Shown piece after piece: positions 11,332 to 29,466 of a stretch of DNA of 35,883 nt. The DNA is from an uncultured Clostridia bacterium (lineage in GTDB: Bacteria; Bacillota; Clostridia; Oscillospirales; JAAYOS01). Every line of letters begins with the position of its first letter. The stretch's first letter is position 1. The DNA lies in the NCBI GenBank assembly GCA_947630675.1, contig CANRIN010000015.1:1-35883 (forward strand), read 5' to 3'. Position numbers and translations under genes: made by a program. The notes under the pieces were generated by a model that saw only the letters and a program-made list of their open reading frames with translations, was not told the origin of the DNA and searched no databases.

Positions 11332-11367
11332 GGAGAAGGATATGTATGCGAGGCGCGGAATATAACT

Positions 11368-11416
11368 TTCGACTACAACAAGTTGCGGGCTTCGCCCGCG
11401 ACTTGTTGTAGTCGAA
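11368..11416. repeat. Terminal hairpin (module a) of mosaic repeat locus 1
   Basis: TTCGACTACAACAAGT-T-GCGGGC-TTC-GCCCGC-G-ACTTGTTGTAGTCGAA; 16 bp outer arm plus 6 bp core. Confidence 0.85.
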
Positions 11417-11498
11417 GCCGCCGGACAGAGCAGAGCTCTGCCGACGGCAACACTCTGCTACGCGCCGAGTTTTCCGCCTTCGGCGGAAAATCGACGCA
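11417..11498 (+). repeat. Module b of mosaic repeat, copy 1
   Basis: 82 nt aligned without gaps to 21940-22021, 75/82 identical by eye; contains GCCGCCGG..CCGACGGC and TTTTCCGCCTTCGGCGGAAAA hairpins. Confidence 0.85.
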
Positions 11499-11500
11499 AT

Positions 11501-11621
11501 TCCCACGCGGTCGGTGACCGCGTGGGAGCCCTTCCGATTGAAATGCTCGGGGCGAATGAATCGCCCCTGCGCAAAGTTGCTTGCCTGTGGCAAGCAACTT
11601 TAACCGCGCGAACAGGCGCGG
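11501..11621 (+). repeat. Module c of mosaic repeat, copy 1
   Basis: Matches the reverse complement of 29229-29347: TCCCACGCGGTC-GGT-GACCGCGTGGGA hairpin, box CTTCCGATTGAAATGCTC, two variable stems, CCGCGCGAACAGGCGCGG. Confidence 0.87.
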
Positions 11622-11689
11622 AGTACGGCTTCGCCGTCTTCGACGCGCGCTCCGCGAGCAGTATTTTCTATTTTGATTCGTACAATGTT

Positions 11690-11746
11690 GGGACGTCGGC
11701 GCGAAGCGCCGAGGTCTGATGCGCCCAGTAGAGAGTTGAGTGCGGT
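11690..11746 (+). repeat. 57-nt direct repeat d, copy 1 (GAA loop)
   Basis: gggacgtcggcgcGAAgcgccgaggtctgatgcgcccagtagagagttgagtgcggt. Confidence 0.92.
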
Positions 11747-11801
11747 GTGTGTGCGAGGGCGCATTGTACACGCCGCCGCCGAAAATGATTTGACTTTATT
11801 T

Positions 11802-11829
11802 CGCCGCTAAAGCGGCGAAACTCTGCGAG
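11802..11829 (+). repeat. Module e, copy 1 (GCCGCTAAAGCGGC hairpin plus GAAACTCTGCGA)
   Basis: cgccgctaaagcggcgaaactctgcga shared with 22086-22111. Confidence 0.8.
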
Positions 11830-11838
11830 GCGTCGGTA

Positions 11839-11895
11839 GGGACGTCGGCGCTTCGCGCCGAGGTCTGATGCGCCCAGTAGAGAGTTGAGTGCGGT
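11839..11895 (+). repeat. 57-nt direct repeat d, copy 2 (TTC loop)
   Basis: gggacgtcggcgcTTCgcgccgaggtctgatgcgcccagtagagagttgagtgcggt; identical to copy 1 outside the loop. Confidence 0.92.
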
Positions 11896-11951
11896 ATATC
11901 CCGAGGGGCGCATTTCTCTACGAGGCATGTACAAAACCGCTTCTGGATCTC

Positions 11952-21452: not shown

Positions 21453-21902
21453 ATGAAAGAATCGAAGTACGATGCGCTCAAGATAGAAAATCAGATATGC
21501 TTCCCGCTCTATGCCGGATCCCGTGAGATAATCAAGAGGTACAAGCCTTATCTTGACGAGCTTGGCCTTACCTACACCCAGTACATCACCATGATGATAC
21601 TCTGGGAGGAAAAGGAGGTAACGGTCAAGCAGCTCGGCAAGCGCCTGTATCTCGACAGCGGGACCCTCACCCCCCTGCTGAAGAAGCTTGAGGCAAAGGG
21701 ACTCATCACCCGTGTCCGCCCCATCTCGGACGAGCGCAGCCTGATAGTCTCCATCACGCGTGAAGGCGCAAAGCTCCGCGACCTCGCGGTGGACATCCCC
21801 GCGAAGATGGCGCCCTGCCTGCACCTCACCGAGGATGAGGCGAAGGAGCTCTACCGCCTGCTCTACAAGATACTCGCGGCGAGCGAGGAAACTTTCGCGT
21901 GA
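21453..21902 (+). CDS. MarR family transcriptional regulator (OhrR-like)
   Basis: LTYTQYITMMILWEEKEVTVKQLGKRLYLDSGTLTPLLKKLEAKGLITRVRPISDERSLIVSITREG. Confidence 0.92.
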   Translation: MKESKYDALKIENQICFPLYAGSREIIKRYKPYLDELGLTYTQYITMMILWEEKEVTVKQLGKRLYLDSGTLTPLLKKLEAKGLITRVRPISDERSLIVSITREGAKLRDLAVDIPAKMAPCLHLTEDEAKELYRLLYKILAASEETFA

Positions 21903-21939
21903 AATCGCGCGGGCTTCGCCCGCGACCTATTTCACGCGA
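21895..21939. repeat. Terminal hairpin (module a) of mosaic repeat locus 2, overlapping the marR stop
   Basis: TCGCGTGAAAT...GCGGGC-TTC-GCCCGC...ATTTCACGCGA; the 5' arm is the last codons and stop of marR. Confidence 0.85.
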
Positions 21940-22021
21940 GCCGTCGGACAGAGCGGAGCTCTGCCGACGGCAGCACTTCGCTACGCGCCGAGTTTTCCGC
22001 CTGCGGCGAAAAATCGACGCA
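21940..22021 (+). repeat. Module b of mosaic repeat, copy 2
   Basis: 82 nt ungapped match to 11417-11498. Confidence 0.85.
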
Positions 22022-22085
22022 CGCTGCGTGAGAAGAGTTTTTTCCGACGTACACGCCGCCAGAAAAAACGGATTGCACTTTTTTT

Positions 22086-22111
22086 GCCGCTAAAGCGGCG
22101 AAACTCTGCGA
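22086..22111 (+). repeat. Module e, copy 2
   Basis: gccgctaaagcggcgaaactctgcga, as at 11804-11829. Confidence 0.8.
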
Positions 22112-22120
22112 TGCTTTGAC

Positions 22121-25806: not shown

Positions 25807-27512
25807 TCGTCTTTTCCTCCGTTTTCATACAGTTTGGCCGCATTCCATTCCTTGGTAAGCTCCGCGAGTGACTGCTGCCGCTCCCCGCGGGCCTCACTCA
25901 CTGCACGCGCCGCGACCGCGTAAGTCCGGAGCCCGAGCGGCCATGCCTCCGGCGAGCGGTCGCCGTCCGCGAGAAGCGCGAACGCCGTCGCCCCCGCCGT
26001 GTAGACATTCGTTACTTCATCTAGCTCCGCTCCGAGCGTGTACTCCTCCGGGCTCATAAAGCGGGAGCTTCCCCACATCCTGCCCATGTCGTTCCGTGCG
26101 GGGAGCGGCCGGAAGAAGTCTATGTCGCAGACCGTGAGCCGGCGCGTGTCGAAGTCGTATATGAGGCTCCCGTCGTAGAAGTCCACGGCGAGGTATCCCC
26201 GCTCCGCCGTCGACCGCAGAAACTCAAGTGCGCTCTCAAAGGCCGCTGTCCGCTCGGACACAGACAGTTCATTGAACCGCCTGTGCGGGGACGGGTACAT
26301 AAGCCCTATCCCCTCGCCCTCCGCCCAGCGGAATACGGCGGCGCATCCCCCGCCGATATCTTCCGCCGAGATGAACTCGGTGAGGCTGTCCTGCCTCAGC
26401 GCTTTATATAGCGGGACCGCCCGCTTCAGCCGCTCTATCGCATCCGCCGCCGTGCCGTCGTACCGATATGTCGCCGCGCCCGCGAATTTGACAAAGAACC
26501 GTTCCCCGTCCCGCTCTACGCCGAAGCAGATGTTCCCCGAGTCCTGGTCGTCAAATACGCGGAAGACCCTGCCGTACTTCGCGAGAAACGAAAAGTCGAA
26601 GCGCTCCTTCATCCTGAACCGCGCGCCGTCCACGGTCTGCACCGTGTACCCGTCGCTGTACCATCGCGGGACGATACGCTCCATGTTGTCGTACCAGTCG
26701 AGGACGTCCGCCGCCTGACGGAGTGCTGTATCCTTCTCCTCCTCGCTGTATGCCACGGCCCACGGTATCGTGCTCAGAGTGTTCGACGAGATGTAGAGCG
26801 CGAGCAGCCGCCAGAACTCCTCCGGCACGCCGTCCGGGAAGTATCCGTCAAGCGTTCCGCGCGCGAATGCGGGCGCCGCCTGCGCGCTCCAGACTATTCG
26901 GTTGAACTCCTCCCACGGGTCGCCGAAGTCGTACTTGTCGAAGTCGATAACGACAAGATGTCCGTCCTCGAGCATCATATTGCCGATATGATAGTCGCCG
27001 TGCTGGAAGGTCTGCGGACGTCCAGCGAGCAGACCGCGGTTTTGCTCGATGTACCGCAGGAAGTTCTCCCCTCCCTCTACCTTGACGGGACAGGCGTTGT
27101 ATCCTTCGATCTTACGGTCCATCTTGCGGCCAAAGTGCGCCGCCCAGTCCTCCAGATTTTCCGGCGCGGGGATGGAGTGTATAAGGCGGGCGTACCTTCC
27201 CGCGTCGAGGCCGAGCGCGTACTGCTCCGCCTCACGGAGCTCCGGGACGGCTTCCTCCGCGTCGACTCCATTCACCCAGCGGTAGAGGATGTACACGCCG
27301 TCCGGGCGTTCCTCCCGATCGACCGGCTCGCTTATCGGAACGCCGAGCGCCGCCGCCTCCTTCTCGAACCGAGTGAGCTCCGGCCGGCCCGCCGCCTTCT
27401 CGGGCGGCATGACGCGCAGCAGGAACGCGCGCCCCTCCGCATCGGTCACGCGGTACTTTCTGTCCCCCGACCATCCCTTCTCCACCGGCTCGCAGCTCAC
27501 AAATTCGCGCAT
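25803..27512 (-). CDS. Fusion of an N-terminal APH-type phosphotransferase and a C-terminal protein-kinase-like domain
   Basis: N-domain: QHGDYHIGNMMLEDGHLVVIDFDKYDFGDPWEEFNR. C-domain: KYGRVFRVFDDQDSGNICFGVERDGERFFVKFAGA...YLAVDFYDGSLIYDFDTRRLTVCDIDFFRP...GSSRFMSPEEYTLGAELDEVTNVYTAGATAFALL. ATG at 27512 (MREFVSCE). Confidence 0.83.
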   Translation of the reverse strand: MREFVSCEPVEKGWSGDRKYRVTDAEGRAFLLRVMPPEKAAGRPELTRFEKEAAALGVPISEPVDREERPDGVYILYRWVNGVDAEEAVPELREAEQYALGLDAGRYARLIHSIPAPENLEDWAAHFGRKMDRKIEGYNACPVKVEGGENFLRYIEQNRGLLAGRPQTFQHGDYHIGNMMLEDGHLVVIDFDKYDFGDPWEEFNRIVWSAQAAPAFARGTLDGYFPDGVPEEFWRLLALYISSNTLSTIPWAVAYSEEEKDTALRQAADVLDWYDNMERIVPRWYSDGYTVQTVDGARFRMKERFDFSFLAKYGRVFRVFDDQDSGNICFGVERDGERFFVKFAGAATYRYDGTAADAIERLKRAVPLYKALRQDSLTEFISAEDIGGGCAAVFRWAEGEGIGLMYPSPHRRFNELSVSERTAAFESALEFLRSTAERGYLAVDFYDGSLIYDFDTRRLTVCDIDFFRPLPARNDMGRMWGSSRFMSPEEYTLGAELDEVTNVYTAGATAFALLADGDRSPEAWPLGLRTYAVAARAVSEARGERQQSLAELTKEWNAAKLYENGGKDE

Positions 27513-28805: not shown

Positions 28806-28884
28806 ATATTCCCGCTCTTCTCACCAAAGAAATTCCTAAACGACGTCCGCGCCGCCCGGAACATTGCTGCAGCAAAAGCCTCAC

Positions 28885-29228
28885 AGAGTTTCGCGCCGAC
28901 GGAGCACGTTTCGCCGCGAAGCGCCGCAGGTGCTTTCCGCACTAGCACACGCTCAAGGTCGGGCAATATTTGCGAAGCAAATACTGCGGGCGAAAGCAGT
29001 ATAGTGTAGGATGAAGAATTGGTTCGCGCTTTCGCTGTTCGCAGCGGTTGATGTTGCCGAAGGCAACATCACGCGGGCGATTATGATTATATCAATGTCC
29101 GGCTTTGCCCGCGAAGCGGGTAAAGCTCACGAGGGCTGAATATGTTCCGATGCGGAATATCTCGGCGCCCTCGTGTTGCCGAGCGAGCATTTCAATCGGA
29201 AGGAGCCCCAAACGGCGCTCTGCGTCGT
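28885..29228. repeat. Left part of mosaic repeat locus 3: serial hairpins and a box copy
   Basis: GATGTTGCC-GAA-GGCAACATC, GCTTTGCCCGC-GAA-GCGGGTAAAGC, CACGAGGGC...GCCCTCGTG (29128-29175), box GAGCATTTCAATCGGAAG at 29185-29202. Confidence 0.65.
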
Positions 29229-29347
29229 CCGCGCCTGTTCGCGCGGTTGAAGTTAGCGGCAAAGCCGCTAACTTCGCGCAGCCCCGATTCATTCGGGGCG
29301 AGCATTTCAATCGGAAGGGCTCCCACGCGGTCACCGACCGCGTGGGA
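29229..29347 (-). repeat. Module c of mosaic repeat, copy 2 (inverted)
   Basis: Reverse complement aligns to 11501-11621; box GAGCATTTCAATCGGAAG at 29300-29317; TCCCACGCGGTC-ACC-GACCGCGTGGGA at 29321-29347. Confidence 0.87.
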
Positions 29348-29350
29348 ATA

Positions 29351-29393
29351 ACCAAAATAAATGCCACGACAAAGTCGTGGCATTTATTTTGGT
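29351..29393. repeat. 20-bp perfect hairpin abutting and overlapping the tRNA-Pro 3' CCA
   Basis: ACCAAAATAAATGCCACGAC-AAA-GTCGTGGCATTTATTTTGGT. Confidence 0.92.
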
Positions 29394-29466
29394 CGAGGCG
29401 ACAGGATTCGAACCTGCGGCCTCTGCGTCCCGAACGCAGCGCTCTACCAAACTGAGCCACGCCTCG
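29390..29466 (-). tRNA. tRNA-Pro (anticodon CGG), CCA encoded
   Basis: Minus strand CGAGGCG-TG-GCTC..GAGC-CTGCG TTCGGGA CGCAG-...-GCAGGTTCGAATCCTGT-CGCCTCG-A-CCA: all cloverleaf stems pair. Confidence 0.96.

Follow-up and report, generated by a model that had tools for sequence, protein, structure and literature searches.

Nested hairpin modules of an uncultured Clostridia bacterium as gene-less mobile elements with a probable link to palindrome-targeting IS1182 transposases

The window (the whole stretch of 35,883 nucleotides that was analysed) is part of contig 15 of a 2.06-Mb MAG, of which 416 kb, about one fifth of the genome, was sampled. Locus 1 covers positions 11366-11914 of the forward strand and is an a-b-e unit in which module c is inserted in b and module d in e, with another d following. 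Module a (11366-11416), the left end of the unit, is an outer hairpin, CTTTCGACTACAACAAGT...ACTTGTTGTAGTCGAAG. The left part of module b (11417-11500) contains the hairpins GCCGCCGGACAGAG...CTCTGCCGACGGC and TTTTCCGCC...GGCGGAAAA and is interrupted by module c (11497-11622), four serial hairpins inserted in b. The rest of b and the left arm of hairpin e1 (ATTTTC...TTCGTAC) lie at 11623-11686; this stretch was assigned by comparison with the uninterrupted orthologue in L103, and it is separated from the right arm by module d (11683-11768), which is inserted in the e1 hairpin with GTAC on each side. Module e (11766-11831) comprises the e1 right arm, hairpin e2 and a conserved CTCTGCGAGGC end. 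The second d (11836-11914) follows e and is 85% identical to 11687-11765. A covariance model of e, R1, for which the window's genus supplied most of the copies, matched 11752-11831 with 61 bits. The original prediction had placed modules a to e and the second d close to these coordinates; the family is larger than it had claimed, with recurrences in the window and in the genome.

Module a is a family of ~50 copies with variable stems and the consensus TTTCGCGGGAAAT...ATTTCCCGCGA; the copy of locus 1 has an orthologue in L103. Its inner hairpins (e.g. in L074, L134 and L082) are often identical to terminator hairpins that are common in the genus (GGGCGCGGAT..., AGGAGCGGGC... and GGGGGCAGAC...), as if module a had captured terminators. 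Module b is uninterrupted in L051 and L074. In four genomes, nhmmer returned 188 hits to module c, with some of the loci overlapping; the number of distinct full copies was 81. Among 60 distinct copies of d with flanks, nearly all were in the e1 loop, in the a loop or directly behind e. We had at first suspected that a takes its arms from the adjacent gene end, but its own consensus accounts for most of this resemblance.

Locus 2 (21888-22114, forward strand) is a simple, uninterrupted a-b-e unit. As predicted from the window alone, it carries copies of b (21939-22021, 92% identical to 11416-11498) and of e (22049-22114, 80% identical to 11766-11831), and R1 matched it at 22029-22114 with 82 bits. 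The basic a-b-e unit is ~230 bp long and occurs uninterrupted here and, for example, in L051 and L074; it is short and has no open reading frame of its own, and no transposase was found in the window loci, in agreement with the original prediction. L070 has an orthologue of locus 2 at the same site. A MarR-family gene (21453-21902) ends within module a of locus 2 (21888-21939). The last codons and stop of this gene fall within the left arm of the hairpin, in the same way in the congener L070; its C-terminus is thus supplied by the element.

Locus 3 (28875-29349, reverse strand) comprises an e fragment, nested modules and two c-type units, and extends up to the terminator hairpin of tRNA-Pro (29393-29466, reverse strand). 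It had been described as an inverted a-c with further hairpins. The inverted c (29270-29349, 91% identical to 11499-11578; inverted stretch overall 29228-29349) and the additional nested modules were found, and an e fragment is present besides; the supposed a is the hairpin at 29352-29392 that adjoins tRNA-Pro, not module a. Nested modules make locus 3 ~390 bp longer than its counterpart in L070. Perfect hairpins lie directly behind tRNA genes and extend into the encoded CCA end in the window (29352-29392), in L054 (~1770-1815), in L045 (~12620) and in L046 (14774-15210). One tRNA-adjacent hairpin differs from its L070 orthologue by a single compensatory pair (AATAAA/TTTATT vs AACAAA/TTTGTT). 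In the L046 region, a c unit is duplicated in tandem along with a terminator and the 3' portion of tRNA-Val; one of the two terminator hairpins has the loop AAA and the other TTT, which looks like a flipped hairpin.

Self-comparison of the sampled 416 kb revealed ~40 loci, a density near one per 10 kb; repeats of at least five hits make up 3.1% of the sample. This recurrence far exceeds chance, and the modules extend beyond the three loci first noted. A 576-bp query gave at least 102 matches in the genome of origin (40 of 200 candidates scored). Four other genomes of the genus were searched: three gave dozens of matches each, and G002 gave none. A 20-base piece of module c was found in only three genomes of an 85,462-species collection, all of them close relatives. 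The closest named relatives are three MAGs of "uncultured Clostridia bacterium" with Lapin sample names, from rabbit judging by the name. A plasmid search gave no match, and a phage search gave one, in an unannotated gut record. MAG assemblies break at such repeats, and the end repeat lies ~90 bp from the start or end of several G126 contigs. An assembly artefact or a decayed gene is ruled out as the source of these sequences, since they recur in four MAGs and at orthologous loci.

Filled and empty sites were found between close relatives. L103, a congener with ~90% identical flanks, has an orthologue of locus 1 with c, without either d and with the e1 arms intact. The window lacks, at 1843-2018, a ~375-bp element that L113 has there. 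In the pair L053/L092, a c unit lies in the loop of a in L092, flanked by the 9-11 bp repeat GCGAAGCGAGC, and L049/L137 form a filled/empty pair for d in e. Aligned sequences thus show modules coming and going at orthologous sites of close species. Together with the nesting, this presence and absence supports the original view of a non-autonomous mobile element. The orthologous copies of locus 1 and L103 also exchange whole stem alleles, which, with loops in both orientations and tandem copies of c, would fit a process without transposition, in which gene conversion, template switching and slippage at palindromes spread and shuffle the modules. We regard this as improbable, because whole-module gain at new sites and the terminator-hairpin duplications found elsewhere (see below) require insertion. 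At 25842-26643 the window has ~800 bp, apparently coding, that are not present at the orthologous site in L070.

Covariation was measured on MAFFT alignments of e and c that were not fitted to structure. In these alignments 97-99% of stem cells paired, both-sided changes occurred at 15 of 21 pairs in e and 12 of 19 in c, and none of 500 shuffles reached the observed covariation score. Such strong covariation is what a structured non-coding RNA or riboswitch-like family, with hairpins conserved for the folding of a transcript, would show, and the original prediction had offered a structured RNA as an alternative. A constraint on RNA tolerates G-U on the transcribed strand, whereas A-C is not tolerated. 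Mismatches in c stems were 16 G-T and 11 A-C among ~2,650 Watson-Crick pairs; e stems, counted on alignments fitted to the model, had 14 of each kind within the genus, and order-wide 15 G-T and 12 A-C. The tRNA control from the same genomes gave 23 G-T and 1 A-C. The near-equality of the two mismatches, unlike the tRNA pattern, indicates that the constraint is strand-symmetric and that the hairpins are maintained as DNA palindromes. Copies also occur in both orientations and behave as insertions. A search of Rfam 15 at the gathering score, in the window and the loci of 13 relatives, found only one tRNA and one T-box, elsewhere in the loci, and within the elements gathering and relaxed thresholds gave chance matches only. 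An RNA family is therefore very improbable, and this part of the original prediction was not borne out.

These results show that covariation alone is no proof of RNA. The comparison of G-T with A-C is a cheap test of strand symmetry that can be applied to orphan RNA candidates from metagenomes. The same arms were found with the loops TTT and AAA, and some target duplicates have an inverted loop (L221; L308); both observations favour DNA hairpins that are opened and re-joined. The matching of the arms may reflect either selection on the DNA hairpins or mutational palindrome correction.

At E <= 0.001, R1 found module e in 30 of 197 genomes and in 20 of 110 genera of the order, including other families, with a patchy distribution; several genera of other families have 20 to 50 copies. 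Among the sampled genera of the window's own family, it detected e in no genus other than the window's. Copies of family f13 have a longer architecture, P1-P2-P3-P4-CTCTGCGAGGC, and no Rfam family matches that part of the loci. These findings demonstrate that an element found across the order, with the serial hairpins P1, P2 and P3-P4 before its CTCTGCGAGGC end, is represented locally by a-b-e, where P1 corresponds to a, P2 to b and P3-P4 to e. Modules c and d are additional palindromes located within the a-b-e hairpins.

In three other genera of the order, copies were located at intrinsic terminators and had terminal repeats close to CAGNYTGTCRAAAAA; terminal inverted repeats were clear in the copies of G415, G440 and G021. 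The G415 copies are nearly identical, ~235-260 bp long, start with CAGCGTGTCGAA and end with TTTTTTGACAGTCTG. In 20 of 23 of them, the adjacent gene's terminator hairpin is present in full on either side, and flank match scores at the same locus were 18-41, whereas none of 506 mismatched pairs scored above 14. What is duplicated is exactly the hairpin, and the length of the duplication varies accordingly; T-rich sequence often follows the downstream copy. G440 shows hairpin duplication at L206 and, as far as the contig reaches, at L199, and G021 shows it at L262 and at L269. In L262 (G021:C12) the flanking terminator copies differ by compensatory pairs (CGGC/GCCG vs CAGC/GCTG), which indicates that the arms remain matched after duplication. 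L265 (G061:C3) is a different element without module e that has IS1182-type ends and a duplicated terminator hairpin; these ends are evidently used by more than one MITE family.

An autonomous copy is present in G021 as well; it encodes a 475-aa IS1182-family transposase, has the ends CAGACTGTCGAAAAA and TTCGACAGTCTG, and is flanked by a duplicated hairpin with the loop inverted. This transposase (L291/L308) matched NF033551 (IS1182; E 2.7e-115, 386 bits, cut-off 270). In other genera, L303, L304, L305 and L309 are autonomous IS1182 copies with ends near CAGNYTGTCRAAAAA and duplicated terminator hairpins; with L308, five autonomous copies from five genera combine duplicated hairpins with the ends seen in the MITEs. 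A simple search did not show hairpin duplication in 7 of the 12 IS1182 loci examined. MITE and IS1182 gene co-occurred in 7 of 197 genomes, against 4.4 expected, which is not significant (P=0.12). Three further CAGCGTGTCGAA sites in G415, considered as autonomous copies, were chance sites inside genes. The terminal inverted repeats, target-site duplications and autonomous partner in related genera further support a non-autonomous mobile element.

The region is probably a composite of gene-less MITEs that are moved by a palindrome-targeting IS1182 transposase and nest in one another. Five genomes of the window's genus yielded no IS1182 transposase, so we infer the link of this genus to IS1182 from its element copies. 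The end hairpin CAGTCTGTCAAAAAAGTTC...GAACTTTTTTGACAGACTG or a close variant lies directly outside module a in L102, L104, L114 and L087, all from the window's genus. Since these end hairpins stand outside a in the same order as in G415, a-b-e appears to descend from IS1182-type MITEs. Only some copies of the genus keep such end hairpins, and none in the window does. Around the composite loci of the genus we saw no whole-hairpin duplication, only one terminator on one side. Modules c and d were traced within the genus; they insert into hairpins and presumably use the same or similar machinery, and their insertion places suggest a common origin with the IS1182 system.

An unrelated transposase might instead move the MITEs of the window's genus, with the IS1182 link limited to other families that captured e. 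This would account for the lack of a detected IS1182 gene in the genus and for copies whose ends (TTTCGCGGG.../...CTCTGCGAGGC) mostly differ from CAGNYTGTCRAAAAA; however, IS1182-type end hairpins adjoin a in several contigs of the genus in the G415 order, and the hairpin-directed insertion is alike, so we consider it unlikely. High-copy intergenic palindromes in mosaic, BIME-like arrays would also be compatible with REP/BIME palindromes moved by a Y1 (RAYT) tyrosine transposase. However, Y1_Tnp (PF01797) had no match in the genome of origin, although the control matched in 5 genomes; the units are multi-hairpin and 120-260 bp long; and the relatives have DDE-type inverted ends and target duplications. 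We consider a Y1-based origin extremely improbable, and to the extent that the search gave no Y1/RAYT transposase, the original preference for a mobile element over a simple REP/BIME repeat holds.

If the IS1182 reading is correct, the transposase would recognise an extruded palindrome (cruciform), cut at the palindrome base on opposite strands and then insert the element. Repair would copy the hairpin onto both sides and at times flip its loop. The transposase of the window's genus might have been lost or be present in unsampled strains, leaving only IS1182-type end hairpins. Elements built from palindromes would themselves be targets for an enzyme with this preference and would become nested in one another recursively; hairpin targeting gives a simple cause for nested hairpin mosaics. 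We tentatively propose, as a somewhat doubtful generalisation, that a DDE transposase may read DNA shape rather than sequence; that its cut at the base might duplicate whole hairpins of any length; that palindromic elements might consequently target each other; and that palindrome correction might turn them into mosaics with RNA-like covariation. The approximately two dozen complete-terminator duplications show how a terminator can stay intact when the element inserts there, and they point to cruciform-type cutting.

In staphylococci, IS1272 of the IS1182 family targets terminator hairpins by structure and deletes part of the hairpin with no duplication (PMC4923244); palindrome targeting by other IS1182 members is covered by a review cited in PMC4923244. 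As in the IS1272/TnSha1 system (PMC4923244), the autonomous partner in the relatives is a DDE transposase (NF033551), and insertion into terminator hairpins proceeds without a primary-sequence consensus. Unlike IS1272, which reportedly makes a blunt cut and deletes part of the stem-loop (PMC4923244), the elements of related genera duplicate the whole hairpin, and no transposase copy was detected in the window's own genus. The IS1182-derived MITEs of Methanosarcina acetivorans, partners of ISMac2 (160-169 bp, with inverted repeats), are likewise short and non-autonomous (PMC3852290). The values in its MITE table are 0-4, compared with whole hairpins of ~20-40 bp here, and the description of those MITEs shows no evident multi-hairpin architecture or nesting, unlike in the window family.

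BOX, RUP and SPRITE of Streptococcus pneumoniae (up to ~125 copies; PMC3049150) are, by their description, similarly modular, structure-forming, mostly intergenic and inserted into one another; the window family is not known to be related to them in sequence and differs in having stems without RNA-type wobble and IS1182 as its partner family. REP/BIME/REPIN sequences with RAYT share high-copy extragenic palindromes and mosaic arrays, whereas the units here are longer and multi-hairpin, with no Y1 transposase in their own genome. Mitochondrial repetitive and double hairpin-forming elements (PMC2800124) are also mobile hairpins with complementary substitutions and tandem or multiple arrangements; unlike the window family, they are organellar and smaller, and no transposase is known for them.

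Module e or its end was also observed between genes in the gut viral contigs L143, L145, L146 and L147. Viral contigs are a possible route between genera for this module. L142 (MT838551.1), deposited as "Bacteriophage sp.", has an e copy behind a gene for a surface-layer-like protein and may be bacterial rather than phage.
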